The translations under genes and the position numbers were made by a program. A DNA stretch of 34,508 nucleotides from Desulfobacca sp. (lineage in GTDB: Bacteria; Desulfobacterota; Desulfobaccia; Desulfobaccales; Desulfobaccaceae), in NCBI GenBank assembly GCA_028695935.1, contig JAQVHY010000018.1, positions 1 to 34,508 on the forward strand, in the 5' to 3' direction. Of the stretch, positions 9,981 to 34,508 are shown one piece after another (position 1 is the first letter of the stretch; each line of letters begins with the position of its first letter). The notes beneath the pieces were generated by a model. The model made no database searches, was not told the DNA's origin, and saw nothing but the letters and a program-made list of their open reading frames with translations.

Positions 9981-10417
9981 AACAGATTTTTTATCTCCAA
10001 AGCAATTTAATTATCGGATCCGAAAAGCGCCCCGTACGGTTACTTATTTTTTACCACGACAACGAACCTATCACATTTCCACAAACTGGGGGTTAGCTAA
10101 CAGCCTAGCGGTCTCTACCTTGAGCGCCAATTTTAGAAAAAATAACCATAGCTCATATTGGCGGCATATAATAATTGTTGTTGTCATGACAATTTTAGTT
10201 TGAGCAAAAAATAATTGACTAAATAACTTAAATATGCAAAAAAAAGTTTGTCTATTAAAGTAAGATTATTATTCCTCTTCACTATTTCTGGCCATTTTGC
10301 TTTAGAAGATAAGGGGTTTCAAACGGAGAATAATTCGACTGGAACAAAGGGGCTATTTATCGGCAATTGAAGGACGCGCAGCTTGATTGCTCAAAAGCCT
10401 ATTTAAAAGGAGAACTT

Positions 10418-13400: not shown

Positions 13401-14437
13401 AGGCCCTACCCGCGATGAGCCTGGCAGGAGCCATGATGCACTGGCGCAGCCTGGCCAACCGCCTCACCTACCAGCGCTGGACTGGCGGTGGCGGGGCCGG
13501 GGCGCCGCGAGTTAGCGGTTCTCGGCTGGCAGGTCTGATGCTGGCTTACAACGGCGCTGATGTGGGCGGCCTGCTGTCCGCCCGGGAAAACAGGGAAGCC
13601 AATCGTCCCTGGAGTATCTACACCGATTTCTTGGGCACTTTTGGAGACCAGGATACTACGCTCAATCAGACCGGTTATGATTTTGATATTTTTGGCTTCA
13701 CCGCTGGAGTTGACTATCGCTTGCGGGATAACTTGATCTTAGGGGTAGGCACGGGTTATTATCACACTTCCACCGACTTTAATGGCTCCGGCGGCAACTC
13801 CGAGGCCGACAGTATCCCCTTCTTGGTCTATGGCACCTATTATCCCGGAAATTTCTATGTGATGGGCGCTTTCGGCTATACCCTCAACCTCTACGATATG
13901 GAACGCCGCTTCTCTTTCGGCGGCCTCCGACGGGTCGCCAAGAGCTCGGTAAACGGCAGCCAGATCAATTTCGCCACCGAGGCGGGTTACGATATCAAGG
14001 TTAAACGAGTGATTTTAACGCCCGCGGTGTCCCTGAATTACGCCAAGGCCTGGGCCGGGAGTTTTACCGAAACCGGAGCCGGGGCCTTGAACCTGACGGT
14101 CGGCAACCAGGAAGCGGAATCGCTCCAGACCGGGGTGGGAGCCCGGCTCAGTTGTCCCTTTAAGGCCGGGAAGGCCCGAGTGGTGCCGCAAGTTTCGGCT
14201 TCCTACCAGCATGAATTTTCCAATGACAGCCGGGGACTTAACGCCCGGTTGAGCCCTACCGGCGGCAACTTTTCCTATCGCACCGAATCCCCGCAACGCG
14301 ATTTTGCGGTAGTCGGCGCCGGGGTGGCAGTGGGGATCAAGCCTAACCTGTGTCTCGAGGCCAACTATAACGCCGAGGTGGGGCGCGGCAACTACACGGC
14401 CCACCAAGTCAGCGGGGTGCTGCGCTGGGAGTTCTGA
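10418..14437 (+). CDS. Autotransporter (type Va) with repetitive beta-helix passenger
   Basis: A 1339-residue secreted or surface protein. The ATG at 10418 is chosen because AAAAGGAG lies 7 bases upstream and a clear signal peptide follows (hydrophobic core LLLAGWLVVGLL, cleavage after SAFA near residue 32). A further 17 upstream codons are open but lack a start signal. The passenger (about 35-960) begins with a W-G-x-x-x-N-W-x-P-x-G-V-P module. It then has about a dozen imperfect repeats of about 48 residues built on G-x-Y-N-L-Q-G-G-x-L and G-T-F-N-Q-T-G-G, predicted to form a beta-helix. A linker (about 960-1055) precedes the C-terminal autotransporter beta-barrel (about 1060-1339), which ends in the typical aromatic residue (LRWEF). 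It probably acts as an adhesin or surface-layer component. It has no operon partners and AT-rich DNA upstream. Confidence 0.9.
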   Translation: MKVYRSIGSRWPQVLLLAGWLVVGLLVQSAFAQIDYYWVGAPGVQDWGTATNWNPNGVPNNDDSAFLEQDDANNRTAAYRNIFPAAPSLSVIRINATGIGTMTLNLGQPVPEGELQAGTIYVGDTHQGSVHQTDGSLSATDYLYLGSQTGSTGTYNLEGGDLTANNLMIGELGTGTFTQSENTPVFTTVMVTNDLGLGTDVGGSGAYNLQGGTLITNYSFVGFGGIGAFNQASGMHVTGNDLILGYVAGSEGAYNLEGDGILTTSYTIVGNEGIGTFNQSGGGQLVANSLTLGQSAGGRGAYNFTGGALTTGADLFVGEAGNGEFRQTGGTINVTDHLGVARGVGGTGTYDMQGGDLTVGELYVGYEGTGTFNQTGGTVITNNINLADEPTGQATFNLQAGNLAFLDPTIAQINVGRQGIAVFNQSAGTDLFLNGIFVNSQAGTSIFNQMGGNTTLNEHLGVGRDLGGRGEYNLQDGTLNMVDLYIGYEGTGTFNQTGGTNTINGDLRLADLNTGNATYNLSGGTLATSYTLVGITGTGTFNQTGGTHFVNNQVRVAEDPGSSGIYNLQGGTLTANEIILNPGGIFNQTGGTLNFTSFFHQGGEVQGCLENRGTYNYNSGTFTGRLLNYGTANFNADFTAGNGMAHYSTLTLYAGDSLSFNGQGLLLDQGGTITQWGGSLSATNEILEDTGAMGAFAQIGGTHTVANTLTLGASANGRGAFNLQDGFLSTTNTIVGQSGVGTFIQVGGEHRVASTLTLAANPGSVGEYDLDYGILSAGTIFLNTGGLFTHTDGSLDYGTFNLRGGTFRGWLDNFGTLTGFGLIDGDLTNTGTVNPGTSTGTLNVTGSYTQNALGTYVVEIASATDYDIIAVDGTAQVDGTLQPVLLGGYNPPYNQVFPGIITATGGVTGTFANILSNITWKLLYHPTSIDLMRYGRDFANPGVPLTANQHNVGIMLNGVRDTATGDLAQVLDTLTVMPASALPTAYQQISPDKAQALPAMSLAGAMMHWRSLANRLTYQRWTGGGGAGAPRVSGSRLAGLMLAYNGADVGGLLSARENREANRPWSIYTDFLGTFGDQDTTLNQTGYDFDIFGFTAGVDYRLRDNLILGVGTGYYHTSTDFNGSGGNSEADSIPFLVYGTYYPGNFYVMGAFGYTLNLYDMERRFSFGGLRRVAKSSVNGSQINFATEAGYDIKVKRVILTPAVSLNYAKAWAGSFTETGAGALNLTVGNQEAESLQTGVGARLSCPFKAGKARVVPQVSASYQHEFSNDSRGLNARLSPTGGNFSYRTESPQRDFAVVGAGVAVGIKPNLCLEANYNAEVGRGNYTAHQVSGVLRWEF

Positions 14438-14655: not shown

Positions 14656-15936
14656 TCAGTAGCGCGGTTCAAAATACAATCTCTTCCCCTGTAGTTCCTG
14701 TTGCTGACGGGCCGAGGCAATCTCCGCTTCACTCCAGGGTTCGACAATCAGCGACTCGGAAACCAGTTCCCATAAGTACTTGACCTCGATATCGAGATGA
14801 TATTCCTTGATCAGGCTCTTCATGATCTGGTCCCGACAGTTATGGCAGGGAGTGACTACCAGTTTAGCACCGGCTTCCCGGATCTGCTCGGCCTTTATCC
14901 GACCGTAATAGATGCGTTCTTTATCATAGGGCATGGCCCAGGCCCCGCCGCCGGCGCCGCAGCAGAACTGCTCAACCCGATTGGGATACATCTCCACCCA
15001 GTGTTCCACACATTGGGAGAGGATGTCGCGCGGCTCCTCAAAATAGCCCTGGCCAAAGGCTCGCAGCGATTTGCGGCCATAATTGCACGGATCATGGTAG
15101 GTGGCCAGTTCCGGGTGTCGGGATTTATCTACCCGAATACGGCCGGTATCAAAATAATGCTTGAGCACGTCAAAGATGCTCCAGATCCGGAAGTGCTGAC
15201 TTTCCTCTTTAAACCATGTGGCGAGACCTAACCTGGTCGCGTAGTAGGCGTGGCCTCATTCCGGCAAGAGCAGATTGGGGATTTTGAGCCGCTGCATGTT
15301 GGCGACAATCCGTCCCACCAATTCCCGCATGGATTCATCATCGCCGGAGAACAGCGCCCAATTGACCCCCTCCCAGTGCACCGCGGGCACCGTCCAGCTT
15401 TCTTTGGCGGCATAAAAGATCTTCCACCAAAACTTCAGGTCATCAGGCTCGGCAAAGGGTTCCTTGGAATTGATGGTCACCAGGAAATTGGCCCCTGCCT
15501 GGTCAATCGGCACATAAAATCCGGGAAAGCCCTCGTCTTCCAGTTCATAACCCAAGTCGTTGAGCAGAAAGAGGAAGTCTTCCTGGGGAATTCCCAGGTT
15601 ATTGCCGCGCTCCAGGTCCATAATCACACCCTTATGAATCGGGCCGGGCACCTTATCCCGGTTTCTGAGGCCGCGGGCGGTGCGTAAAATCTTTAGTAAC
15701 GGCACATTCATGGGACAGGCGGACTCGCAGCGCCCGCACAAAGTGCAGATCCAGGGGAAACGCGAGTCGATCAATTCCTGATCCATTCCATAGGCGAGCA
15801 TCCGGACGGCCTGGCGGGGGTCCAGACCATCGATGCCGGAGACCGGACAGCGGGAGGCACAGGTGCTACAGGTGTAGCAAGCATGGGGGATGCTCAGGAC
15901 GTCGGGAAGTTGTCGGGCCAGATTGATATCGGCCAT
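14656..15936 (-). CDS. Selenocysteine-containing HdrCB-type (CCG-domain) iron-sulfur subunit
   Basis: Read as one 426-residue protein with selenocysteine at residue 227, encoded by the in-frame TGA at 15256-15258. The N-terminal HdrC-like part has two 4Fe-4S motifs (Cys20/23/26/30 and 64/67/70/74). A middle domain follows (FWWKIFYAAKESW). The C-terminal HdrB/HdrD-like cysteine-rich domain has LPE-U-GHAYYATRLG, HDPC (284), FCCGAG (325-326) and CHNC (364, 367). The intact paralogue at 27531-28796 aligns throughout and has Cys in the UGA position. The frame past the TGA has no other stop until 14656, and a hairpin follows at 15221-15240. The start ATG at 15936 has GAGGAG six bases upstream; an ATG at 15954 overlaps the preceding stop as ATGA. 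Likely role: the disulfide- or thiol-active, or electron-relay, subunit of the Qmo/Hdr-like complex encoded just upstream. A nonsense mutation is the alternative. Confidence 0.85.
15221..15240 (-). promoter_or_regulatory. Candidate bacterial SECIS hairpin
   Basis: Beginning 16 nt after the UGA, the mRNA reads GCGACC-AGGUUA-GGUCUCGC. This folds into a 6-bp stem (GCGACC with GG..UCGC) with a two-base bulge on the 3' side, capped by the hexaloop AGGUUA. The loop begins about 22 nt after the UGA. Size, position and GGU-containing loop resemble the E. coli fdhF SECIS (loop AGGUCU). Bacterial SECIS elements lie in the coding region directly after the UGA and bind SelB. Confidence 0.65.
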
Positions 15937-15950
15937 AGTGTCTCCTCTGC

Positions 15951-18062
15951 TCAAGCGGTTTTCTGAAAGCGAAGGGCCTGGCGCACGGGACTCTCCTTGA
16001 TTTCCAGCAGCTTGGCTTCAAATTCCTGGGCCAGACGGGTAAATTCCTGGCTCATTCCCGGAGCCAAGCCGCGGTAAATCAGACGTTCCGGTTCCAGTCC
16101 GGCCTCACCCAAACATTCCTGCCACCATGCCACCCGCTCCCAGGCCCGAGGGCTGCCCTGGAAGGATTTGCAACTCCCCGGATGGCAGGCCAGCACCATT
16201 ACTCCATCAGCGCCGGCTTTAAACGCGGTCATGACATAGTCCAGGTCCACCTTCCCGGCGCAAGGGACCTCAATCAGTTCCAGCCCCAGGGGTACCGGCA
16301 ATTTCCGATAGGCGGCCAGCCGAGCTGCTTCCCTAGCCGAATTCCGGCAGCCCAAGGCGACGATCAGGGGGTGGTAAGCTGCCGAGACTGGGGTCGCAAA
16401 AGAAGCTAATGATCTAAGTTCAGCCTGGAATTGTTGATCGTGATAGCGGTACAGCTGAATTGCCGCCATAGGACATTCCACGGCACAAAGGCCGCAAACT
16501 TTACAGGCCAGATCGGAGAACACCGGCCGGCGGTGGACCACCGAGATAGCCCGGTGGGGACAGAGACGGTAACAGGTCAGGCAAATGGCGCACTTTTTTC
16601 GGTCTAATCTAATCCGGTCCAAGGCCGCGGGGATATGACCCGCCCCAAGTAGCCTGTATAGATAGAGGGCAGCCTCCCGGACCTCCTGGAAGCTTTCCGT
16701 CAGGCTGCTAGGCCCACGGGCCGGACCGACCGCCAGCACCCCGGTGCGGTTGGTGTAAATCGGCAGGTTATAGACGTGATCACCTTGAAAAAAACCCTGA
16801 CTGTCGGCTAGAATTCCCAGAGTTTTTTCCAGCTCCGGGGCCTCGGGCGGCGGTCGCAGGGCTTCTTCCAGGACAATCAATTGGGGCTGCACTACTAATT
16901 CCTGGTTCATGACCTCGTCGAAAAAGCGAACCGTCAGGGCCTCATCGGTCATGGCGATAACCGGCTGACTGCCGGTGACCTTAACGAAGACCACCCCGGC
17001 CTGCCGGGCCTGCTGGGAAAGCGCCTCCAGACCCTCCTCCGCCACCTTGAAGTGGTCGAGCACCACCAGGACCCGCCGTCCGTGGTTTTCCACCAATTCC
17101 AGGGCGGCCCGAAAGGCGCGGCGCTGCGACACCGGGGAGGAATTATGGGTAAATCCCAGCAGAAAAAGCACCGGGGCCGCGTCTACCGCGGTCAGCGTCG
17201 GCAATGGCGCTGAGTTATTTTCAAAGTGCAATTGGGCTTCCAGATCGGCCAGTGACCTGACCCGCTCCGCCGGCCTCAGACCCCAGGCCGCCCAATCAAC
17301 GGTCAGCTCGGGTTCCAGGGCCAGGATTACGCCGCCCACCTGATATTCTTGTTGGCCGCCGGTGGCATCTGCGACAAGCGCCCGGTACTGTCCGGCAACG
17401 CCGTCAAATTCGACGATCTGACTGGCAAACCGGATTTCAATGCCGGGATGTTGAAGCACCGCCGATAGCAACTGATCTAAGGCCTTGGCGGTTTCCCTGG
17501 TATAGCCGCGGGCGTCACGTTTATCTCCCAGTTCGGAGTGAGAAGTGACCAGCAGCACTTTGAGGCCCCAAGACGAAAGTTCGGCAGCCGCGTGAAGCGC
17601 GCTCCAGCCCTGCCCGAGTACCAATACCGTCTGGGAGACTATAACTTCCTGAAGCTGGAGGATAGTTTTATGAACGAGTCGGGCAATCGCCCGGCGCACC
17701 GCGACCTCGGCCTTCTGGTTGGTCCACTCCCGGTCCTGATCAGCCTCGAACACCATCTCCTGCCAGTCCACCAGTTCGGTCGCCTCCAGATTGAGGCCCG
17801 CCTGCGCCAGCCGTGCCGCCCAGGTGGGGGCCACAGGGGTAAGGTGGCCGCTAGCCAGCAACACGCCATCTAAGTTATATTCATCCCGGTGTCTTTTGAT
17901 TTGAGCCAGGCCCGCGGCGGTGTAAATCTGCTCTACTTCCTGAACTAGCTGGACCTGGGAGTGAGCCGCCGCTACCTTATGCATATGCTCGACGTCCACT
18001 TGGGTCTTCTGGAGGTGGCCGTCGCGATCCCAGAAAAAGCCGATCCGAACCCCGGTACTCAT
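15951..18062 (-). CDS. QmoB/HdrA-like flavin iron-sulfur protein with MvhD-type C-terminus
   Basis: A 703-residue cytoplasmic protein with QmoB architecture. An HdrA-like N-terminal half holds a nucleotide-binding motif (VLVLGQGWSALHAAAEL). Two 4Fe-4S motifs lie around 495-540 (CAICLTCYRLCP and CKVCGLCAVECP). A C-terminal MvhD/FrhD-like domain (about 560-690) has PCAGKVDLDYV and ACHPGSCKSFQGS. The dinucleotide motif is atypical (G-Q-G-W-S-A instead of G-G-G-I-A-G), and the N-terminal CHCG-type cysteines of HdrA are missing (IGFFWDRDG), so its own FAD site may be weak or changed. It starts with an ATGA overlap on the QmoA-like gene and overlaps the Sec-CCG gene's first ATG in the same way, so the three form a translationally coupled module. 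In sulfate reducers QmoABC feeds electrons to APS reductase; here the neighbours point to the methylene-THF reductase complex instead. Confidence 0.85.
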   Translation of the reverse strand: MSTGVRIGFFWDRDGHLQKTQVDVEHMHKVAAAHSQVQLVQEVEQIYTAAGLAQIKRHRDEYNLDGVLLASGHLTPVAPTWAARLAQAGLNLEATELVDWQEMVFEADQDREWTNQKAEVAVRRAIARLVHKTILQLQEVIVSQTVLVLGQGWSALHAAAELSSWGLKVLLVTSHSELGDKRDARGYTRETAKALDQLLSAVLQHPGIEIRFASQIVEFDGVAGQYRALVADATGGQQEYQVGGVILALEPELTVDWAAWGLRPAERVRSLADLEAQLHFENNSAPLPTLTAVDAAPVLFLLGFTHNSSPVSQRRAFRAALELVENHGRRVLVVLDHFKVAEEGLEALSQQARQAGVVFVKVTGSQPVIAMTDEALTVRFFDEVMNQELVVQPQLIVLEEALRPPPEAPELEKTLGILADSQGFFQGDHVYNLPIYTNRTGVLAVGPARGPSSLTESFQEVREAALYLYRLLGAGHIPAALDRIRLDRKKCAICLTCYRLCPHRAISVVHRRPVFSDLACKVCGLCAVECPMAAIQLYRYHDQQFQAELRSLASFATPVSAAYHPLIVALGCRNSAREAARLAAYRKLPVPLGLELIEVPCAGKVDLDYVMTAFKAGADGVMVLACHPGSCKSFQGSPRAWERVAWWQECLGEAGLEPERLIYRGLAPGMSQEFTRLAQEFEAKLLEIKESPVRQALRFQKTA

Positions 18063-19303
18063 GGCCAGACTCCTAAATGGCGGGCCATCCGGGCCGCGGC
18101 CTGAGCTGCCTGGGTAATGGATTCGGCAATGTCCATAGGGCCGGTTGCGGTGCCGGCGACCACCACTCCCGGGGAATCATCTTCCTCCTCAGGGACGTAG
18201 AACCCGTGCTCATTCAGTTTCAGACCCAGCATCTGACCCAAAGCCTGATTCTCCGGTCGGGGCATAATTCCCACCGACAGCACTACCAGGTCGAAGTTTT
18301 CACTGATCACCGTCCGCTGCTCCAGATCAAAATACCGCACCGCAATCTGGTCCTGGGACGCGGGAAAATAATCGCCGGGCATAGAGCGAATTAACCTGAT
18401 CCTACCGTTCACTTCCCGCCTGAACCGCTCAAAATCTTTGCCGAAGTTCTGGAGATCCATATAAAAAACCGCGACCCTGGTCTCTGGTCGGGCATGACTG
18501 AGCTTCAGTCCTAGGCGCAAGGCATAGCCGCAACACACCCGGGAGCAGAAGTTATGCTTAAGACTAAGGTCGCGGCTGCCCACACACTGCACAAAGGCGA
18601 TATCCTGGGGCGGTGGGCCGTCCGCGGGGCGCAGCACCCCGCCCTGCTCGCGCAGGCGGCGCTCCAGCTCCAGGGCGGTGATCATATTAGGATAGGCATC
18701 AAAATTGAGGTGGGCCTTTTCCCGCGGATCAAAAGGCACATACCCGGTAGCCAGCACGATGCCGTCCACCCCTAAGGTTAATTCCGCACCCTGCCGATCC
18801 AGATCAATAGCCCCTTCCGGGCAGGCCCCTTGACACCGGCGGGCCTGGTCCAAACTGTCGCATAGACACTGTTCGGGATGGATAACGTAAAATGGATGAT
18901 TCTGGGAAGATGGGCCGTGCCGGATAGCGCCCTCGGCCACGCCTAAACATTTCTCGTAACAGATGCCGCAATTGGTGCATTGGTCTGGGTCGATATAACG
19001 CGGCGCCTGATGCAGGGTGACCTGGAACCTGCCATGCTGACGGGCCACGGAGCTAAGCCGGGTCTGCAAGCTGAGGTCGATGCCCGGAGCGCGGCTAACT
19101 TCCCGCAGCCGCTGCTCGACCAGACAGTTGTTGCACTTGAGACAGCGGTCGGTAGCCTTGCAGGCCAACTGGGCGGCATGACCACCTAAAAACGGGCCCT
19201 GGTCAATGAGGAGCACATCAACCTTCAGTTTGGAAAGTTCCCAGGCCGTAGTCATCCCGGCGATGCCGCCGCCTACTACCAATACCTTTTTGGTCTTACC
19301 CAT
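18059..19303 (-). CDS. QmoA/HdrA-like FAD iron-sulfur protein
   Basis: A 414-residue HdrA-family flavoprotein of QmoA length. The N-terminal FAD motif is VLVVGGGIAGMTTAWEL, followed by a cysteine cluster (ATDRCLKCNNC). Two ferredoxin-like motifs follow: CTNCGICYEKC near 110, and a second cysteine-rich stretch, CLCDSLDQARRCQGACP, near 145-165. The HdrA-type segment IAFVQCVGSRD and FCSRVCCGYALRLGLK appears in the middle, and a second FAD-contact motif (GVVVAGTATGPMDIAESI) at the end. It probably forms the flavin core of a heteromer with the QmoB-like and Sec-CCG proteins, with which it is coupled by a 4-bp ATGA overlap. It follows metF after 39 bp, with GGAT at the expected distance. QmoA itself is the nearest named relative, but the gene context is not that of an aprBA-qmo locus, so I give no symbol. 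Confidence 0.85.
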   Translation of the reverse strand: MGKTKKVLVVGGGIAGMTTAWELSKLKVDVLLIDQGPFLGGHAAQLACKATDRCLKCNNCLVEQRLREVSRAPGIDLSLQTRLSSVARQHGRFQVTLHQAPRYIDPDQCTNCGICYEKCLGVAEGAIRHGPSSQNHPFYVIHPEQCLCDSLDQARRCQGACPEGAIDLDRQGAELTLGVDGIVLATGYVPFDPREKAHLNFDAYPNMITALELERRLREQGGVLRPADGPPPQDIAFVQCVGSRDLSLKHNFCSRVCCGYALRLGLKLSHARPETRVAVFYMDLQNFGKDFERFRREVNGRIRLIRSMPGDYFPASQDQIAVRYFDLEQRTVISENFDLVVLSVGIMPRPENQALGQMLGLKLNEHGFYVPEEEDDSPGVVVAGTATGPMDIAESITQAAQAAARMARHLGVWP

Positions 19304-19342: not shown

Positions 19343-20224
19343 TTACAATTCCACCGCCGCGATAACCTCCGGGATGATCTCCACATGATGATCTGCCCTT
19401 AGGTGGACGCCGTGAGCCAACCCTTTATCTTTGATAGCTCGGATCATTTCGATGGCCCGCTGTTTCCCGCGGGTTAGGGCTTGAGTCTCATCCAGTCCCT
19501 GGAATTCGTTCATGATCTCTGGGGGAATGAGGTTGCCCGGAGGATTATTAGTGGCCTGGCACTCTACATCGCCCTTCCCGAGCAGCCGCACTCCGACCAG
19601 CAATTTGACCTCTTGTTGCCTAATATGAGCCACAAAGGCCTCCAGCTTGTTAAGGTCGTAACCGTCCAGGGTAATAAGAAAATCCGCGCCGGCCCGGATT
19701 TTTTTCAGACACTTGATCATCTGCGGTTGGAGGGGCTGGGCCGCAGGGTTGGCCACTGCCCCCAAAAAAAACCTGGGCGCGCCGTTCAGATCATTGCCGC
19801 CCTGGACTTGGCCGTTTTCCAGCGACCGGGCCATTGTCAGCGCCTGGACCGAATCCAGATCAAACACCGGCATGGCCTCCGGGATGTTGCCAAAGCTCAG
19901 GTAATCGCCGCTGACTAATAAAATGTTCTCAATTCCCAAGGCATAGGCCCCCAGCAGCCCGGCAGCCAGGGCCAGACGGTTGCGGTCCCGGCAGTTAAAG
20001 GTACAAATAACTTCGCCCCCTTGTTCACGGGCCAGGACGCTGGCGGCCAGCGCCCCCATGGCCAGATTAGCCCCGCGATTGTCAGAGATCGCCAAGGCGT
20101 CGACGCAGTCTTTTAAGATGTTAACTTGGCGTCGCAAAGATTCAGGGTTCACGCCTGGAGGGGGTGCAAGTCCCACCGTGATCACAAATTTGCCGGACTC
20201 TAAAGCGTTCTGGAACTTACTCAT
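19343..20224 (-). CDS. metF: MetF-like methylene-tetrahydrofolate reductase, flavoprotein subunit
   Basis: A 293-residue TIM-barrel protein of the MetF family, expected to interconvert 5,10-methylene- and 5-methyl-tetrahydrofolate, the methyl-branch step of the Wood-Ljungdahl pathway. Start ATG at 20224, overlapping the metV stop by 8 bp, gives the family N-terminus MSKFQNALESGKFVIT; the frame is open 42 codons further upstream inside metV. Family blocks visible: TFNCRDRNRLAL, GIENILLVSGDYLSFG (Asp107, matching E. coli Asp120), PVFDLDSVQAL and RFFLGAVANPAAQPLQPQ. Odd: the catalytic Glu (E. coli Glu28) is Gly18 in VGLAPPPG, and the substrate Gln (E. coli Gln183 in ITQFFFD) is Leu186 in ITLDGYD. 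It pairs with MetV. Either the active site is rebuilt or the substrate is different. Confidence 0.85.
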   Translation of the reverse strand: MSKFQNALESGKFVITVGLAPPPGVNPESLRRQVNILKDCVDALAISDNRGANLAMGALAASVLAREQGGEVICTFNCRDRNRLALAAGLLGAYALGIENILLVSGDYLSFGNIPEAMPVFDLDSVQALTMARSLENGQVQGGNDLNGAPRFFLGAVANPAAQPLQPQMIKCLKKIRAGADFLITLDGYDLNKLEAFVAHIRQQEVKLLVGVRLLGKGDVECQATNNPPGNLIPPEIMNEFQGLDETQALTRGKQRAIEMIRAIKDKGLAHGVHLRADHHVEIIPEVIAAVEL

Positions 20225-20897
20225 GGGCCGAGTATCTTCTTTTATAGGCCTGGTGAATCTGAGTCGCCGGGTGCGCGGCCCGGCGGTGATCCCGGGGAGG
20301 GACAATATCTGCGATCTGAGCCAGGCGGCCGGAGGCTTCCAGCCGTTCATAAATCATCGTCCAGGCGCAGGGCTTATCCGGGTTAACTTCGCATTTACCC
20401 GCGCGGGTCCCGGCGCAGGGTCCGTTGAGCAGGCTTTTGGGGCACATGGTGATCGGGCACACCGCGCCGGTCAGCGCCAAGTAGCAGGAGCCGCACAGGC
20501 GGCAACGCTCGGTCCAGTAGCCGGGCTCTTCATTGGCGCCGATGAAGGTGGTGTCCACTCCCGGCAGCACTACCTTGTCCGGGTAGCGGTCAGACAGGAA
20601 CTGGATTCCGACCCCGCAGGCCAGGGACACCAAAACATCATAATCTTTTACCAGATGCCTGATTTCGTAAAGAAACTCGCGGTCACATTGGCGCTCCACG
20701 GTGGCTTCGCCCATAAACAAGGGTTGGCCGGCGAGTTGGGAGGCGATTTCCAACTGCGAAGCCAACAGCTTGACCTCCCGCTCGCCACCGGCCAGGCAGA
20801 CGGCGACACAGGTGCCGCAGCCGACGATCAGCACCCGCTGATAGCCTTTAAGGCTGTCCTTGATCTCGGCCAGGGGCTTGCGCTGGGCAATAATCAC
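20217..20897 (-). CDS. metV: MetV-like methylene-THF reductase partner subunit
   Basis: A 226-residue cysteine-rich protein of the MTHFR C-terminal (MetV) family, found beside MetF in acetogens and other users of the Wood-Ljungdahl pathway. It links MetF to its electron donor through zinc or iron-sulfur sites. It has VLIVGCGTCVAVCLAGG near the N-terminus, VSLACGVGIQ in the middle, and the signature CRLCGSCYLALTGAVCP, then KSLLNGPCAGTRAGKCEV and KPCAWTMIYERL. GTG at 20897 is chosen because GGAGAA lies 8 bases upstream and the family starts at VIIAQRKPLAEI. A GTG at 20957 would overlap mvhD by 35 bp without a ribosome-binding site. It lies between mvhD and metF, the arrangement expected for a MetFV-HdrABC-MvhD complex. 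Confidence 0.9.
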   Translation of the reverse strand: MIIAQRKPLAEIKDSLKGYQRVLIVGCGTCVAVCLAGGEREVKLLASQLEIASQLAGQPLFMGEATVERQCDREFLYEIRHLVKDYDVLVSLACGVGIQFLSDRYPDKVVLPGVDTTFIGANEEPGYWTERCRLCGSCYLALTGAVCPITMCPKSLLNGPCAGTRAGKCEVNPDKPCAWTMIYERLEASGRLAQIADIVPPRDHRRAAHPATQIHQAYKRRYSAHE

Positions 20898-20922
20898 GTT
20901 TTCTTCTCCATACTTTGACGCC

Positions 20923-21408
20923 TCAGGCCACTGCCCGTCTCTGATTTTCAATTCCACCGGCGGCCTGGTGTAAACGCAGGGGATTGGGCCCCAGTTTTTT
21001 AACTCGGGCTACCATTTCATTGACCCGCGCCACCCACTGGGGCGCATCCGAGGCCCCGATGTGGTACATTTCCAGTCGTTCGCCCGCAATACCGGCTTCG
21101 GCCAGCAAGGCTTTGGTATATTCCACCCGCTCGCGGGCGCGCAGATTACCCTCCCGGAAATGGCAGTCCCCCGCTTCGCAACCGCCCACCAGGATGGCAT
21201 CGACCCCGGTTTGCATGGTTTTGAGCAAATGGATGGTGTCCACCTTGCCGGTGCAGGGTAGCTTGACGATCCTCACTTCGGGCGGATATTGCAGCCGCAG
21301 GGAGCCAGCCATATCCGCCGCGGTATAGGTGCAGTAGGTGCATACCAGTGCCACAATTTTAGGCTGCCAATCGTTGTTGTTAGTAATGGCTGGGTTCATT
21401 TCCCTCAC
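20923..21408 (-). CDS. mvhD: MvhD/FrhD-family electron-transfer subunit
   Basis: A 161-residue protein of the methyl-viologen-reducing hydrogenase delta family, a 2Fe-2S carrier that passes electrons to HdrA. It has VCTYCTYTAADMAG near residue 24, KLPCTGKVDTIHLL, and the diagnostic GGCEAGDCHFREGN. The first GTG overlaps the hdrA stop as GTGA, which suggests translational coupling. An ATG nine bases further in (21399) has GAGGG three bases upstream and is an alternative. No hydrogenase genes lie nearby, so it probably links the large HdrA to MetV/MetF rather than to hydrogen. Confidence 0.92.
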   Translation of the reverse strand: MREMNPAITNNNDWQPKIVALVCTYCTYTAADMAGSLRLQYPPEVRIVKLPCTGKVDTIHLLKTMQTGVDAILVGGCEAGDCHFREGNLRARERVEYTKALLAEAGIAGERLEMYHIGASDAPQWVARVNEMVARVKKLGPNPLRLHQAAGGIENQRRAVA

Positions 21409-24400
21409 GCTACTTGGCGTTGTAAGTCATCGATCAGTTGGTCTAAAGGGCAGACCACCATGGTTTCCGCCAGGATCTGATCGTCTTTTAAATGCTGCAC
21501 TTGAATGAGCCGCCGCGGGCAGGCGCTGGCGCAGTTGCCGCAACCCTGACATTCCGCCGGATCAATCTCGATAAAGCCGTCGGCCGCGACTTTGGGCACT
21601 CCAAAGGGGCAGGTCCGGGCGCAAGTCATACAGACTACACACTTCTCCCGGTCCACGGTGGCGACCTGACCGCCGACAAACATCTTCTCCTGGGCCAGGA
21701 TAGTAGCCGCCCGACTGGCCGCGCCCTGGGCCTGGGCAATGGACTCCTCCAGAAACTTGGGACCGTGCCCCAAACCGCATAGAAAATAGCCCGAATTGGT
21801 GAAATCCAGGGGCCGGAGCTTGACGTGGGCCTCCAGCAAAAAGCCATCCTGGTCCAAGGGGAGTTTCAGGGTGCCGGCCAGGGCTTTGCTTTCCGCCCGC
21901 GGCCGCAGCGCGGCGCTTAAGACCACGGCGCTGACCGGAATCTCCAGTTCGGCGTGCATGTTCTGATCAAAGACATTGACCACCAAGGCCTCGCTGTCAG
22001 CTTTTACGGTTGGTTTCTGAGCCAGATCAAAACGGACAAACCGAACTCCCGCCTTCCGGGCCTGCTGGTAATAGAGTTCATTAAGGCCAAAGGTCCGGAT
22101 GTCGCGATAGAGCACATAAACCGCCGCCTGGGGATTCAGCTCCTTAAACTTAAGGGCATTGGTGATCGCCTGGGTACAACAGATACGGCTACAATAAGGA
22201 TGCTCCGGCTCACGTGATCCCACACACTGGATCATTACCAGGCTATCAATTTGGTTGAGACGCGCGTCGCTAGCTCCCAAAAAGCCGTGGAATTCCCGTT
22301 GGGTCCAGACCTGCGGGTGCTGGCCGTAGAGATACTCGCTAGGGCGATATTCGCTGGCCCCGGTGGCCACGATGGTGGCGCCGTGCTCCACCTCCTGTAT
22401 TTGCCCGTCAGCATTGATCCGGCTGACAAATTTTCCCAGATGTCCCCTGGTGTCGATAACTTCGGCACCGGTTAATAAGCTGATTTTAGGATGGTTTTTT
22501 ACCTGACCGATCAGCGTCTGGACAAAATTCTGGACATCTTCACCCTGAGCGTTGAAATAGAGGTGCAGGGCTTCACCTCCCAGCGTGTCGGTTTTCTCCA
22601 CCAGCGTGGTTCCGAAACCTTGATCGGCCAGGGCCAGAGCCGCACTCAGACCGGCCACCCCACCCCCGATCACCAATCCCTTCTGGGTCACGGTAACCGC
22701 GTGTTCCGGCAAGGGTTCCAGCCGCGCCGCCCGCGAGACTGACATACGCACCAGGTCTTTGGCTTTTTCGGTGGCGGCCTCCGGCTCCTGTTGATGCACC
22801 CAGGAACACTGATCCCGGATGTTGGCCATATCAAACAGGTATTTGTTGAGTCCGGCCTGACGCAGATTATCCTGGAACAGCGGTTCATGGGTGCGCGGCG
22901 AGCACGAAGCCACCACCACCCGGTTAAGCTGATATTCGTCAATGATCTCGATCATTCTGGCCTGGGAGTCGGTGGAACAGGTAAACAGGTAGTCCGTGGT
23001 ATAAACCACGTGAGGTAGGGTCTGGGCGTACTCGGCCACTGCCTTGACATCGATCACCCCGGCAATGTTAATCCCACAATGGCAGACAAAGACGCCGATG
23101 CGTGGTTCCTGCCCCTGTACCGGTCGCTCCGCGGGATAGACGATCTCCCGGGCCAGGGTACCGCGGGCCGCGGCCAGCAGACGCTGGGCCTGGCACGCGG
23201 CGCTCGAGGCCTGGGCCACGGTCTCGGGTATGTCTTTAGGGGACTGGAATACGCCGCAGGTATAAATCCCTTCTCGGGAAGTGGCAATCAGATCAAACGG
23301 CCGGGGTTGGGCAAAGGCAAAGTGGTCCAACTCCAGGTTCATTTTGCGGGCGATACTGATACTGGCCGGATGGGGCTTCAGGCCCACCGATAGAATGACC
23401 AGGTCGAAGCGCTCATCCTGGAACTGGCCGGCTTCATCCAGGTAGTGAATCTCCAGATCGTGACTAATGGGGTTCTCCGCTACCCGTGAAATCATACTGC
23501 GCACGAAGCGCACCCCGTGTTCGGTCCGGGCCCGCTCATAGTAGCGGTCGAAGCCTTTGCCATGCGCTCGCAGGTCCATGAAAAAGATGGTCGGCTCGAT
23601 CCGGGGATCATGCTCTTTGGCGATGATCGCCTGTTTAATCGCATACATGCAGCACACCGAAGAACAATAGTCCTGACCGCAGGCCGCATCGCGCGAGCCG
23701 ACGCATTGAATCCAGGCCACTTTAACCGGCTCCTTACCGTCCGAGCGGCGCTGGAGATGGCCTTGTAAAGGTCCAGAAGCCGACAGCATCCGTTCAAATT
23801 CCAGGCTGGTGATGACATTGGGATAGCGGCCGTAACCATATTCTCCTTTGCGGGAGGCGTCAAAGGGCCGGAAACCCAGGGCCAGGATCACCGCCCCGAC
23901 CTCGAGATTAATGGTCTGGGGTAACATGCCATGGTCAATGGCCCCGGCCTGGCAGGCCGCCACACATTGCATACACTCCGAACAAACGCCACAATTGAGG
24001 CAGCGGGCCGCTTCGGCCTGGGCCTGCTCGATGGTATAGCCCTGGGCCACCTCATCAAAACTGTTGCCGCAGAGTTCGGCGGGCAGGACTGGCATAGCCC
24101 GCCGGGGTTGCTTTTCCTTATCCAGCGGAATTTCCGCCCAATCAGCCAGGGCCTGAGCTTCCGCACCCAGATCCCGTCCCGCGGTTAAATCCCGACCCTG
24201 TAAATACCGGTCAATTGATTCCGCGGCCTCCAGCCCTCCGGCAATGGCGCCGATTGCCACCCAGGGACCGGTATGGACATCCCCCGCGGCAAATACTCCG
24301 GACCGGGAGGTCTGATAAGTCACCGGATCCAATTCCACAGTCCCGAAACGGGTGGTTTGAATATTAGTATCGGCTACGCCGGTCAAGTCTGCGGCCTGCC

Positions 24401-25904
24401 CCACCGCCGGCAGGATCATATCGACCTCCAAAAAAAACTCCGAGCCGGTGAGGGGAACGGGGCGGCGGCGACCCGAAGCATCAGGCGGCCCCAGTTCCAT
24501 GCGGATACAGGTCAGACCCGTCACCTTACCATCCTGGACCTCTACTTTTTCAGGCGCGGCTAAGTAGTGGATTTTGATGCCCTCGCATAGGGCCGCTTCA
24601 ATCTCCTCGGCCAGGGCCGGCATCTCCTCCCGGGAGCGGCGATAAACGATCGTGATTCTTTCCGCGCCCAGACGCCGGGCGGCGCGGGCCACATCAAAGG
24701 CGACATTGCCGCCGCCGATAATGGCTAATTTTTTGCCCAGCTCAGGTTTCTGTCCCAGGTTTAGTTGGCGCAGGAAATCAACCCCCTGGATCACCCCGGC
24801 CGCCTCCTCTCCCGGTATGCCCAGAGCGCGGCCCTGATGGCAACCTAAACCTAGAAAGACCGCCTGGTAGCCCTGATCAAAGAGGTCGTCCAGGCTGAAG
24901 TCGCGGCCCAGGGCGGTATTGGTTTTGATTTCTACCCCGAAGCGCATGATATTATCGATTTCCGCATCCAATATATGTTTGGGCAGGCGATAGTCGGGAA
25001 TCCCGACCCGCAGCATGCCGCCGGTAACCGGCAAGGCCTCGAAAATGGTCACCGGATAGCCCCGCCGAGCCAAATGATAGGCGCACGACAGCCCGGCCGG
25101 ACCGGAGCCGATGATCGCTACCCGTTCCGGTCGAGTGGTGATCTCCGGCCAAGTGATGCTGGCTAGTTCCACCTGATCGGCGGCAAAGCGCTTCAGGTTA
25201 CAGATGGCCATCGGCTCGTCTATCTCCTGGCGGCGGCAACGATATTCACAGGGATGGGGACAGATGCGACCTAACACCCCCGGCAAGGGCAGTCGTTCCA
25301 TGATCAGCCTGACGGCCTCGGCGTACTTGCCCGCCTTAATCAACTGGACATAGCCCTGGACATTGATCCTGGCCGGGCAGGCCGCCACGCAGGGAGGCCG
25401 GTCCAATTTTTCAATGGCATAAGCGGAGGGAATGGCCTGGGGGAAGTGTCGGTACGCGGCCCGGCGCGGTCCCAGTCCCTCATCAAAGGGGGCAAGTAGG
25501 GTGACCGGACAGACCTTGGCACATTCACCACAAGCGGTGCATTTATCTACATCTATAAAACGCGGCTTTAGCCCCACCTTCAGGGTAAAATAACCCGGCT
25601 CGCCCTCCAGCGACTGGACCAGCGACCCGGTAATGATATCAATGTTGGGATTGGCCGCTACCTCGATGAGCTTGGGCGAAATCATACAGGTAGAACAGTC
25701 GTTGGTCGGAAAGGTCTTGTCCAATTGGGCCATAACCCCGCCGATGGTGGTGTTGTGCTCCACCAGATAGACCTTGAATCCGCTCCGGGCCAGATCCAGG
25801 GCCGACTGCATCCCGGCAATACCGCCGCCCACTACGGCCACTGCGCCGATTTTATTAGGGGCGTTGACTGACTGGCGGGAATTAAGATTTTCTGTATTAA
25901 TCAT
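21405..25904 (-). CDS. hdrA: Giant HdrA: HdrA split by NfnB/GltD module plus second HdrA copy
   Basis: A 1499-residue flavin iron-sulfur protein, about twice to three times normal HdrA length. Order seen: HdrA FAD motif VVGGGIAGMQSALDLARSG (22-42) with HdrA cysteines NDCSTCMISPK (68-78) and a 4Fe-4S motif CTACGECAKVCP (122-132). An inserted GltD/NfnB-like NAD(P)H oxidoreductase (about 169-570) has cysteines 172-235, GSGPAGLSCAYHLARRG (267-282) and the NAD(P) motif IIGGGNVAFDVARAARRLG. The rest of the first HdrA (about 630-915) has CLNCGVCSECMQC and YCSSVCCMYAIK. A second HdrA (about 935-1405) has CHCGINIAGVID and VIGGGVAGLSAALALADQG. Two terminal ferredoxin motifs lie near 1415 and 1444. The protein should bind up to three flavins and so could bifurcate or confurcate electrons between NAD(P)H, ferredoxin and the MetFV/HdrBC sites. 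It is followed by mvhD with overlap. Confidence 0.9.
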   Translation of the reverse strand: MINTENLNSRQSVNAPNKIGAVAVVGGGIAGMQSALDLARSGFKVYLVEHNTTIGGVMAQLDKTFPTNDCSTCMISPKLIEVAANPNIDIITGSLVQSLEGEPGYFTLKVGLKPRFIDVDKCTACGECAKVCPVTLLAPFDEGLGPRRAAYRHFPQAIPSAYAIEKLDRPPCVAACPARINVQGYVQLIKAGKYAEAVRLIMERLPLPGVLGRICPHPCEYRCRRQEIDEPMAICNLKRFAADQVELASITWPEITTRPERVAIIGSGPAGLSCAYHLARRGYPVTIFEALPVTGGMLRVGIPDYRLPKHILDAEIDNIMRFGVEIKTNTALGRDFSLDDLFDQGYQAVFLGLGCHQGRALGIPGEEAAGVIQGVDFLRQLNLGQKPELGKKLAIIGGGNVAFDVARAARRLGAERITIVYRRSREEMPALAEEIEAALCEGIKIHYLAAPEKVEVQDGKVTGLTCIRMELGPPDASGRRRPVPLTGSEFFLEVDMILPAVGQAADLTGVADTNIQTTRFGTVELDPVTYQTSRSGVFAAGDVHTGPWVAIGAIAGGLEAAESIDRYLQGRDLTAGRDLGAEAQALADWAEIPLDKEKQPRRAMPVLPAELCGNSFDEVAQGYTIEQAQAEAARCLNCGVCSECMQCVAACQAGAIDHGMLPQTINLEVGAVILALGFRPFDASRKGEYGYGRYPNVITSLEFERMLSASGPLQGHLQRRSDGKEPVKVAWIQCVGSRDAACGQDYCSSVCCMYAIKQAIIAKEHDPRIEPTIFFMDLRAHGKGFDRYYERARTEHGVRFVRSMISRVAENPISHDLEIHYLDEAGQFQDERFDLVILSVGLKPHPASISIARKMNLELDHFAFAQPRPFDLIATSREGIYTCGVFQSPKDIPETVAQASSAACQAQRLLAAARGTLAREIVYPAERPVQGQEPRIGVFVCHCGINIAGVIDVKAVAEYAQTLPHVVYTTDYLFTCSTDSQARMIEIIDEYQLNRVVVASCSPRTHEPLFQDNLRQAGLNKYLFDMANIRDQCSWVHQQEPEAATEKAKDLVRMSVSRAARLEPLPEHAVTVTQKGLVIGGGVAGLSAALALADQGFGTTLVEKTDTLGGEALHLYFNAQGEDVQNFVQTLIGQVKNHPKISLLTGAEVIDTRGHLGKFVSRINADGQIQEVEHGATIVATGASEYRPSEYLYGQHPQVWTQREFHGFLGASDARLNQIDSLVMIQCVGSREPEHPYCSRICCTQAITNALKFKELNPQAAVYVLYRDIRTFGLNELYYQQARKAGVRFVRFDLAQKPTVKADSEALVVNVFDQNMHAELEIPVSAVVLSAALRPRAESKALAGTLKLPLDQDGFLLEAHVKLRPLDFTNSGYFLCGLGHGPKFLEESIAQAQGAASRAATILAQEKMFVGGQVATVDREKCVVCMTCARTCPFGVPKVAADGFIEIDPAECQGCGNCASACPRRLIQVQHLKDDQILAETMVVCPLDQLIDDLQRQVA

Positions 25905-25934: not shown

Positions 25935-26792
25935 TCAGCAAGATATCAGCCCGACGCCGGCTAACAGGCGCGCCGGCGGGACAAAGTGCATGTGGCCCCA
26001 CTGCCGGGCTTGACTAAGGCCTAAGGCCAGCCCGATAAGTTCAGTAAAATAAAAGATCGGCAAGTAATACGAGCGTTCCAGCTCCCGTAGGATTTTATCC
26101 TGATACAGGTCCAGGTTGGCCTGGCACATCTGGCAGGAAACCACCATGCAGTTGGCCCCGGCTTCTACGGCTTTATCGTAGAGTCGGCCCACCAGTTTAA
26201 AGACGATATCGCGGCGGGCGATCAGGTGGCTGGCCCCACAGCAATCGGTTTTGTACGACCAGGGTTTTACCTCCACCCCTAATTTACTCAGAATACGGTC
26301 CATACTGGTAGGATTCTCGTGGTCGGGGGCCTCTGTGATCCCCGGCGGCCGGCTGGCCATACAACCGTAGTAACAGACGGCCTTAAGTCCGGGCAGGGGC
26401 TGGCTAACCCTACTGGCCAGGAGTTGGAGCAGTGGCTCCTGGGCCAGGAAATCAGCCAGATCGTAAATCTTAATGTCACCCTGGAAAGCATAATCATAAG
26501 ATTGGCGCTTATCTCCGGTGAGTGCTTGGGCCGCGGTCTTAAGCCGGTTAAAGCACAACGGACAGGGGACTACCAGATCCCGGCCCTCTTTTTCGGCCAG
26601 GGCCAGATTACGGCCCGCCAGGGCAATCGCCGCATGGTGGTTGAGGGCATGGGCCGCGGTAGCGCCGCAACAGTTCCAGTCTTCCAATTCGATGAGCTCC
26701 ACTCCCAGAGCTTTACACACCGCGGTTAGCGAGGCGGCGTAATCGCGGGCCGTGCCTTCCAGCGAACATCCGGGGTAGTAGGTGACTTGCAT
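25935..26792 (-). CDS. hdrB: HdrB-type CCG-domain subunit
   Basis: A 285-residue homologue of heterodisulfide reductase subunit B. It has two complete CCG cysteine-rich motifs: the first from YYPGCSLEG through DWNCCGATAAH to PCPLCFNRL, the second from CYYGCMASRP through TDCCGASHLI to SCQMCQANL. In HdrB these bind the unusual non-cubane 4Fe-4S clusters that reduce disulfides or act as an electron exit. ATG at 26792 is preferred because AGGA lies 6 bases upstream; GTG at 26804 overlaps the hdrC stop but has no such signal. It is located between hdrC and hdrA in the usual operon arrangement. Electron acceptor unknown. Confidence 0.92.
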   Translation of the reverse strand: MQVTYYPGCSLEGTARDYAASLTAVCKALGVELIELEDWNCCGATAAHALNHHAAIALAGRNLALAEKEGRDLVVPCPLCFNRLKTAAQALTGDKRQSYDYAFQGDIKIYDLADFLAQEPLLQLLASRVSQPLPGLKAVCYYGCMASRPPGITEAPDHENPTSMDRILSKLGVEVKPWSYKTDCCGASHLIARRDIVFKLVGRLYDKAVEAGANCMVVSCQMCQANLDLYQDKILRELERSYYLPIFYFTELIGLALGLSQARQWGHMHFVPPARLLAGVGLISC

Positions 26793-26800
26793 GGGCATCC

Positions 26801-27376
26801 TCACCCGGTGGAATTTGCCAGAATTTTCTTGATTGCGGCTCTGGCCCTAATGCCTTGGGGCGTGAGCGCCAGCCGCCCTTTGCGGAACAGGTGATAGGCC
26901 AATTCCAGGTCATCCTTGAGCTCCCGATCCTTGAGTTTGCGCCAGATTTCTCCGCTTTGGAACATATAGCGGGGCAACAGCCCGCCTTCAAAAACCCGGC
27001 CGCGGCGACCAATATCCTCCAGAAACACCCGATGAAAGGCATAGGTGCGGGGCTGGGGAATGTCAATCCCACTCTTTATTGCCTGTTCTTTCAGGTAATC
27101 CATGATGCCGGCCACATCCACCTCATTGGGGCAGCGGGTGGTGCAGGTTTCACAGGCAGAGCAGACCCAAATAGTGCTACAATTGAGGACGGCCTTTTGC
27201 TGTCCGATCTGCACCAGCCTAATTACCTGGTCGGGATAGAGATCCATGGCAAAGGTGACCGGACAGCCGTTAGTGCACTTTTTACATTGGTAACAGGCCG
27301 AAACCGCAATGCCGCTGTCCTGCTCGACCTGCGCCATAAACTGCACTTCGGGAATAAGCTTTGGGTTAGATAACAT
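26801..27376 (-). CDS. hdrC: HdrC-type 4Fe-4S subunit
   Basis: A 191-residue homologue of heterodisulfide reductase subunit C, carrying electrons from HdrA to HdrB through two cubane clusters. Two motifs are visible, ACYQCKKCTNGCP near the N-terminus and VCSACETCTTRCP about 45 residues later, followed by a helical C-terminal region (RTYAFHRVFLEDIGRRGRV). The ATG at 27376 has AGGG 8 bases upstream and gives the normal N-terminus; a GTG 13 codons upstream is the alternative. The stop lies 8 bp before the preferred hdrB start. A 154-bp gap containing an inverted repeat separates it from the preceding gene. Confidence 0.92.
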   Translation of the reverse strand: MLSNPKLIPEVQFMAQVEQDSGIAVSACYQCKKCTNGCPVTFAMDLYPDQVIRLVQIGQQKAVLNCSTIWVCSACETCTTRCPNEVDVAGIMDYLKEQAIKSGIDIPQPRTYAFHRVFLEDIGRRGRVFEGGLLPRYMFQSGEIWRKLKDRELKDDLELAYHLFRKGRLALTPQGIRARAAIKKILANSTG

Positions 27377-27428
27377 TATTAGCCCTGCTCTATGAACTGG
27401 TCGGCCACAAATCACTCGCTGTGTCTTG

Positions 27429-27530: not shown

Positions 27531-28796
27531 TTAGCCCTCCAATATCAAGGCGTCGGCCACGACTTCCCAGAGATATTTGACTTCGATGTCGAGGTCATAA
27601 GCCTTCCTCAGGTTGCGCATGATCTGATCGCGGCAATTGGAGCAGCCGACCACCACCAGCTCCGCTCCGGTAGCTTTGATATCCTCCACCTTATAGCGGC
27701 CGTGTTCGGTCTTCTCGGCCTGGAAGGGGCCGGGCCAGTTGCCGGCTCCGGCACCGCAGCAATAAGCATTCATGCGATTATGGGGCATCTCCCGGAAGTT
27801 CTTCATGTCAAAGCAATAACTGAGGATTTCCCGCGCCTTATCAAAACAGTCATCCCCCCAATAGATTCTCGCCACCCGGCCATGTTTACAGGAGTCATGC
27901 CAGGTGAAGATCTGGTCGGCATGTACCGATTTATCTACCCGGATGCGCCCCTGTTGCAAAAAATTGAGCAGCACATCAAAGAAATAGACATAATCGTGGC
28001 CGGTTTCAGGGCCGAACTCGTGCTTGAAATACTGTTCAATGTTAAGCCGGGTCCCCATCGAAGCCCCGCCACAGTCGGGCAGGATCATGGTCTTGGCCTG
28101 CAAGCGCTTCATATTTTCCACTTTGCGCCGGGCAATTTCTTTGCTGGCCTCCCAGTTGCAAGTAAAAAGTCCCCAATCTACCGACTCCCAGTTGGTAGAG
28201 GAGGTGGTCCAATCGGCCTTAGCCGCGTAAAAAATCTTCCACCACCATTTTAAATCTTCGTAATCGGCAAAAACCTCTTTGGAATTTTCAAAGAAGAGGT
28301 ATTCCGCCCCGACTTTATCCAGGGGAATTTCAAAGCCGGGACATTCTTCTTCGGCCAATTCCTCGGCCAGATCCTGCATGGTTTCGACGTAGTCTTCGGT
28401 GGGAATGCCCATATTGTTGCCGGTCTGGAGGCACATCTCCACGCCCTTATGCAGCACCCCGGGAACCTGGTCGCGGGGCCGCAGGGCCTTGGCCCGATAC
28501 CAAATCTCCGTCAGATGCACCCCCATCGGGCAACCGGCCACACAGCGATAGCAGGCGGTGCAGATCCAGGGAAACCGGGCATCAATAAGTTCCTGCTCCA
28601 TGCCCAACAGCACCATGCGCAGGGCCTTGCGACAGTCCAGGTGTTCATCGCGGGTGCTTTCCATGCCGGTCAGCGGACACCCGCCGGAACAGGTGCCGCA
28701 GGTATAACAGACATTGACATGGGCGGCGGTAATCAGGTCGGCAAAACGGCTGTCCCGACGTTTTTGCGTAATGGTCATAAAATCCAAGGCTTCCAT
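27531..28796 (-). CDS. HdrCB-fusion (HdrD-like) iron-sulfur protein, cysteine form
   Basis: A 421-residue cytoplasmic fusion of HdrC- and HdrB-like parts. Two 4Fe-4S motifs are at Cys30/33/36/40 and Cys79/82/85/89. A middle domain has two WWWKIFYAAK-type aromatic blocks. The CCG-type region has LPDCGG (Cys242), HDSC (303), YCCGAG (346-347) and CSNC (385, 388). There is no membrane segment, unlike QmoC. It is paralogous over its whole length to the UGA-containing gene at the other end of the cluster, with Cys242 matching the selenocysteine. ATG at 28796 has GGAGAA 5 bases upstream. It is the first gene after the sigma-54-type promoter. It probably delivers or accepts electrons at a thiol/disulfide or protein partner; the substrate is unknown. 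Confidence 0.88.
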   Translation of the reverse strand: MEALDFMTITQKRRDSRFADLITAAHVNVCYTCGTCSGGCPLTGMESTRDEHLDCRKALRMVLLGMEQELIDARFPWICTACYRCVAGCPMGVHLTEIWYRAKALRPRDQVPGVLHKGVEMCLQTGNNMGIPTEDYVETMQDLAEELAEEECPGFEIPLDKVGAEYLFFENSKEVFADYEDLKWWWKIFYAAKADWTTSSTNWESVDWGLFTCNWEASKEIARRKVENMKRLQAKTMILPDCGGASMGTRLNIEQYFKHEFGPETGHDYVYFFDVLLNFLQQGRIRVDKSVHADQIFTWHDSCKHGRVARIYWGDDCFDKAREILSYCFDMKNFREMPHNRMNAYCCGAGAGNWPGPFQAEKTEHGRYKVEDIKATGAELVVVGCSNCRDQIMRNLRKAYDLDIEVKYLWEVVADALILEG

Positions 28797-31991: not shown

Positions 31992-32043
31992 GGTTTACCC
32001 TTCCCCATCGGGCCAAGTTATGATTTACGGCGGACCTAATCTA

Positions 32044-34392: not shown

Positions 34393-34508
34393 ATCCTGAT
34401 CCTCTTCGCCCCTGAGATAGGAAGGTATATTAATCCCTTCAGTAATCAACCACCTCTCCCGCGGTTACCGATGGTCACGGGAACGGCACTGGACCGGCTG
34501 ACAACCGG

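Follow-up and report, generated by a model that had tools for sequence, protein, structure and literature searches.

The question raised by this locus is whether the TGA that interrupts a long reverse-strand frame in the window (the whole stretch of 34,508 nucleotides of Desulfobacca sp. DNA that was analysed) is a stop, a defect or a codon for selenocysteine (Sec). Re-translation agreed with the sequence-only reading that the frame 15954-14656(-) is broken only by the TGA at 15258-15256(-), with LLLPE before it and GHAYYATRLG after it. With this TGA read as a residue, the frame gives 432 residues, the single internal TGA being codon 233 counted from TTG, and the final stop is a second TGA at 14658-14656. 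The start at TTG 15954 assumed in that reading was replaced by ATG 15936 as the likelier one, since the TTG overlaps the gene upstream and AGAGGAGA, a Shine-Dalgarno (SD) sequence, lies just 5' of the ATG. From ATG 15936 the predicted product has 426 aa and a mass near 48 kDa, with Sec as residue 227 (U227); the open frame with one internal TGA, the Pfam Fer4_8 and CCG matches and the ATG with its SD led to annotation of 14656..15936 (-) as a Sec-containing HdrCB-like (GlpC-type) iron-sulfur protein. Mechanical ORF calling gives two ORFs at the locus, 15954-15256 and 15168-14656. Standard gene callers would likewise split or truncate the gene, which makes this electron-transfer subunit easy to misread across many genomes of Desulfobacterota.

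The TGA column was compared first with the paralogue at 27531-28796 (-), which has Cys there (LPDCGG). Identity holds on both sides of the column (48% overall), and the alignment confirmed the earlier claim that the TGA falls on the paralogue's cysteine with both halves conserved. Among 59 related genomes searched, the best 24 matches each had one internal TGA, always at this column and within (L/Y)PE-TGA-GHAY, and a scan of named genomes gave 80 further loci, nearly all labelled Desulfobacterota or Deltaproteobacteria. Over all loci, in counts that include a few genomes reached twice (e.g. L011/L065, L013/L127), 98 had TGA in the column and 13 had Cys, with single cases of Thr (L117) and Gly (L122). 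The 98 TGA matches consist of 97 in the Sec-HdrCB family and one distant UGH relative. On the strength of UGA in about 97 orthologues and Cys in the paralogues, the codon at 15256..15258 (-) was assigned to Sec227.

Since the window is one of the 201 contigs of its assembly and a lone stop breaks the frame, a pseudogene or a sequencing or assembly error had to be considered. However, the same TGA recurs in about 97 orthologues, including complete chromosomes and isolates, and so is not a base error of a metagenome-assembled genome (MAG) or a fresh nonsense mutation. Selection on the two halves also argues against decay. Against the nearest relative (L010, 88% identical), the 100 codons on the 5' side of the UGA gave a dN/dS of 0.04, the 100 on its 3' side 0.09, and the 28 between the UGA and the first possible restart 0.26. 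Other pairs mostly gave 0.02-0.27, one of them (L020/L030) having 0.25 on the 5' and 0.48 on the 3' side of the UGA. With such strong purifying selection on both halves, and a hairpin maintained at the synonymous level (see below), the chance of a pseudogene or an error is practically negligible. As judged from these substitution patterns, translation continues past the UGA in the frame of the first half.

The same data bear on the possibility that the UGA is a true stop and that the N-part (HdrC-like) and the C-part (CCG) are made as two proteins, the latter from an internal GTG. Both mechanical ORFs exist, and HdrC and HdrB are often encoded by separate genes. Against this, conservation at the protein level (GHAYYATR) extends over the 28 codons from the UGA to the first restart, the Cys orthologues are single uninterrupted chains, and the hairpin signal is confined to the UGA forms, which makes a split gene very improbable.

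The UGA rows form one clade. Six Cys orthologues and the Thr/Gly pair branch inside it; the Cys paralogue of the window and its kin lie outside. By this nesting, Sec is old in the UGA clade, with no fewer than three losses. The orthologues with Thr and Gly (L117:8001-9278 and L122:3080-4216) vary in the Sec column with the rest intact, and both come from Syntrophobacterales genomes with Sec machinery. Sec or Cys at this column is, on this comparison, not strictly obligatory, and some lineages do without. In two members of the window's own genus, the best match was a Cys-type protein only. Two further observations were made in these scans. One Syntrophobacteraceae MAG (L085 and L107, the same genome) has both a Cys and a UGA copy. 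The distant UGH relative, L081:4560-5720, is a second UGH-type HdrCB (34%) with an in-frame TGA (ITE-U-GHALRALQF), situated beside MetFV genes, and its L082 counterpart has Cys.

A bacterial SECIS-like hairpin, GCGACC-AGGTTA-GGTC(TC)GC, was located at 15221..15240 (-). It begins 16 nt 3' of the UGA, and its apical loop begins 22 nt after the UGA and contains a conserved G-G: the G at +23 is present in all UGA loci and that at +24 in all but one. The locus therefore has what is looked for in bacterial selenoproteins, a SECIS hairpin with an apical-loop G directly downstream of the codon. In 97-98% of 96 UGA loci, segments of 42 nt starting 0-6 nt past the UGA folded more stably than their synonymous-codon shuffles, by 3.3-3.9 kcal/mol. 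This signal was lost by +18 nt, and the 13 non-UGA loci did not show it at the same place. RNAalifold run on all UGA loci found only two common pairs, because two registers were mixed, and splitting the loci by an Arg codon resolved them. Register A, with AGG, has pairs 18-31, 19-30, 20-29 and 21-28, and register B, with CGG, has pairs 18-32 to 22-28; the two thus co-vary through the AGG/CGG Arg codons. The window locus is of register A (GCGACC-AGGTTA-GGTC). Stem A or B can form in all 96 usable UGA loci, compared with 5% (at most 10%) after synonymous shuffling. In the isolated 42-nt RNA including the UGA, the minimum-energy fold is a different one, and the SECIS hairpin is favoured once the UGA, which would be held by the ribosome, is left out of the folded RNA. 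Even with a permissive threshold, Rfam gave nothing known for the locus apart from a snoRNA match due to chance; the case for a SECIS thus rests on the covariation tests. The two-register SECIS provides a clean search pattern for the Sec-HdrCB (GlpC/UGH) family.

The source genome contains all four components that the sequence-only reading had proposed to look for: tRNA-Sec (selC, 79 bits), SelB (385 bits), SelD (369 bits) and SelA (601 bits). SelD of this genome itself has an in-frame TGA. Among 26 further genomes, tRNA-Sec was above the cut-off in 23 and SelA in 25, with at least one of the two in every genome, though the tRNA-Sec hits scoring around 50 bits could belong to other tRNAs. No SelA match was found in the analysed genome sequence of Desulfosediminicola flagellatus (L104), in which tRNA-Sec is present; many selenoproteins have reportedly been published for this species. 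Sec machinery is likewise present in most genomes whose protein has Cys, Thr or Gly at the column. The replacement of Sec thus did not come simply from loss of Sec decoding, and the earlier expectation that Cys forms would mark non-selenium species was not borne out. An open frame alone is silent on which residue is inserted, and UGA could in principle stand for a different amino acid, such as Trp, by reassignment or readthrough. However, TGA is the stop in seven of the ten genes of the cluster described below, the Sec gene included, which shows that UGA is not reassigned; where the column is not UGA it is usually Cys, and the Sec machinery is complete. Insertion of another residue is accordingly given only a very small chance. 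Together, the UGA/Cys column, the SECIS-like hairpin, purifying selection past the UGA, and tRNA-Sec with selA, selB and selD uphold the earlier proposal of a selenoprotein. We are highly confident that TGA 15258-15256 encodes selenocysteine and that the gene is intact and belongs to a family already known, the Fe-S oxidoreductase-like (GlpC, UGH-motif) proteins.

The protein had been proposed as a new selenoprotein, and in this respect the sequence-only reading has to be corrected: its family is that of the Fe-S oxidoreductase-like/GlpC proteins with the UGH motif, described in 2006. In that survey, Sec-GlpC was found in D. psychrophila, D. vulgaris and S. fumaroxidans, in an operon glpC-hdrA-frhD-frhG-frhA (PMC1794560), and DP1009 of D. 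psychrophila is given in a 2007 study (PMC1914089). A 2026 review lists an 'Fe-S oxidoreductase-like protein', PTHR43551, with the motif UGH (Table 1, PMC13188914), the function of this family being still uncharacterised according to the same source (PMC13188914). All nearest relatives of the window protein have E-U-GHAY. The orthologue in Desulfosediminicola flagellatus, 66% identical, is followed by HdrA, FlpD, an Oxidored_q6 protein and an NiFe(Se) hydrogenase; FlpD and the hydrogenase each have an in-frame TGA. It thus heads the gene order of the published operon, which the window copy does not. The UGH motif together with this orthologue places the window protein in the known family, with which it further shares the occurrence in Desulfobacterota (Deltaproteobacteria) and the Fer4 and CCG domains. 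The difference lies in the setting, as the window gene follows QmoA/QmoB-like HdrA halves and MetFV-HdrABC-MvhD, and frhG and frhA do not adjoin it. This setting, the failure of every NCBIfam model to reach its cut-off, and a match to the published GlpC family made by motif and operon could suggest a selenoprotein of a new family, apart from the described ones. Yet the UGH motif is identical, identity to proteins heading glpC-hdrA-frhD type operons is 64-66%, and the UGA rows are a single clade, so that we consider a new family improbable.

Membership in the known family does not make the protein a true GlpC (glycerol-3-phosphate dehydrogenase subunit C): the models TIGR03379 and NF008369 gave 31 and 52 bits against cut-offs of 280 and 278, and the name GlpC is loose for the Sec-HdrCB family. 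The best NCBIfam scores were those of HmcF, TmcB and DsrK (192, 169 and 149 bits), with which the domain order is shared, but these are far under the cut-offs of 750, 735 and 400, and the window contains a soluble Hdr cluster, not an Hmc, Tmc or Dsr operon. By description, the protein also resembles HdrD4/HdrF2 of Desulfobacterium autotrophicum, which have Sec in Hdr-type proteins fusing HdrC- and HdrB-like domains (PMC2702500); HdrF2 differs in having membrane helices (PMC2702500).

Two [4Fe-4S] motifs, C20/23/26/30 and C64/67/70/74, were assigned to the HdrC-like part (15715..15879, (-)) from Pfam Fer4_8, invariant Cys and matching HdrC structures. A complete C-terminal CCG site of the non-cubane type, C284, C325-C326, C364 and C367 (14836..15087, (-)), was assigned from PF02754 (42.5 bits), invariant columns and an HdrB-like fold. 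Two complete five-Cys CCG motifs, as expected of HdrB/HdrD, were not found in the protein; there is one CCG match, and the N-terminal site is reduced to Sec. The AlphaFold2 model has a mean pLDDT of 90.7. Among PDB structures it is closest to mycobacterial EtfD, LutA and methanogen HdrB, and its N-part matches HdrC. Profile alignment with EtfD puts Sec227 on the first Cys of a CxxC in the N-terminal CCG lobe, the other ligands of which are missing, and a profile match of the family to the window's HdrB covers the second CCG domain only, with low probability. The methanogen HdrB/HdrC structures (5odc, 7bkb, 8rvu) share the two-lobed fold of the C-part, the complete second CCG site and the HdrC-like N-part. 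In contrast to these, the window protein has lost the first CCG site but for Sec227 and has the HdrC and HdrB parts on one chain.

In HdrB, two clusters face each other across the substrate. Since Sec occupies the N-terminal CCG site, it would lie near the remaining cluster, and we infer that it is probably a redox-active selenolate facing the non-cubane cluster, which may join in thiol/disulfide-type chemistry. The recoding signal, the domains and their conservation are evident from sequence. In the mechanism proposed, SelB with Sec-tRNA would read the UGA, helped by the hairpin starting 16 nt downstream. The product would have two cubane clusters in its HdrC-like part and a two-lobed HdrB-like part with one complete CCG site, Sec taking the place of the only Cys left of the other, N-terminal site. 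The selenolate, beside the non-cubane cluster, would trade electrons with a disulfide- or persulfide-type partner, and the HdrA-type subunits of the cluster would supply electrons to, or take them from, the methylenetetrahydrofolate reductase (MTHFR, MetFV) reaction and NAD(P)H/ferredoxin. This electron-transfer role, with Sec at the non-cubane cluster, HdrA-type subunits and MetFV, is put forward tentatively, its probability being somewhat short of even.

The Sec gene is the last of ten genes running in one direction with overlaps or short gaps. In order, these are the Cys-containing HdrCB paralogue (27531..28796, (-); LPD-C-GG, from Pfam, alignment and tree), HdrC (26801..27415, (-); PF13183, TIGR03290), HdrB with two CCG domains (25935..26804, (-); PF02754 twice), a large HdrA of 1499 aa with an NAD(P)H-glutamate-synthase-like module (21405..25904, (-); profile matches), MvhD/FlpD in a Cys form (20923..21408, (-); PF02662), a MetV-like protein of the MTHFR C-terminal domain family (20217..20957, (-); PF12225), MetF, methylenetetrahydrofolate reductase (19343..20350, (-); PF02219), a QmoA-like FAD/Fe-S protein corresponding to the N-terminal half of HdrA (18059..19303, (-); profile matches), the C-terminal half of HdrA fused to MvhD, QmoB-like (15951..18062, (-); PF02662, partial HdrA2 match), and Sec-HdrCB. 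The full order is kept in one relative with a complete, one-contig genome, the Sec protein being 88% and the HdrA halves 73 and 60% identical, and similar MetFV-linked positions are seen in L052, L081, L082, L103 and L105.

A MetFV-HdrABC link is known in Moorella and has been proposed for seep sulfate reducers (PMC10553843). As in the Moorella type, metF, metV, hdrABC and mvhD stand together here, but the window adds two HdrCB proteins (one Sec, one Cys), a large NAD(P)H-type HdrA and split HdrA halves. The addition of Sec-HdrCB to a MetFV-HdrABC cluster is the less usual part, the family itself being already known. From this neighbourhood it could be speculated that the Sec-Hdr module is the electron-accepting or -donating end of an MTHFR complex (MetFV-HdrABC-MvhD with the HdrA-like halves), in which Sec replaces the lost non-cubane cluster opposite the remaining one and makes the methyl branch of the Wood-Ljungdahl pathway selenium-dependent. 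We regard this as rather unlikely; the MetFV neighbourhood would in that case link selenium to the folate branch of carbon metabolism, a testable idea.

The cluster adjoins a gene of the opposite strand for a 1356-aa protein with a C-terminal autotransporter beta-domain (10367-14437 (+)). Directly upstream of the Hdr/MetFV cluster, 29129-34449 (-) encodes two histidine kinases and a sigma-54 response regulator, an arrangement partly conserved in L131, and these may be regulators of the cluster.
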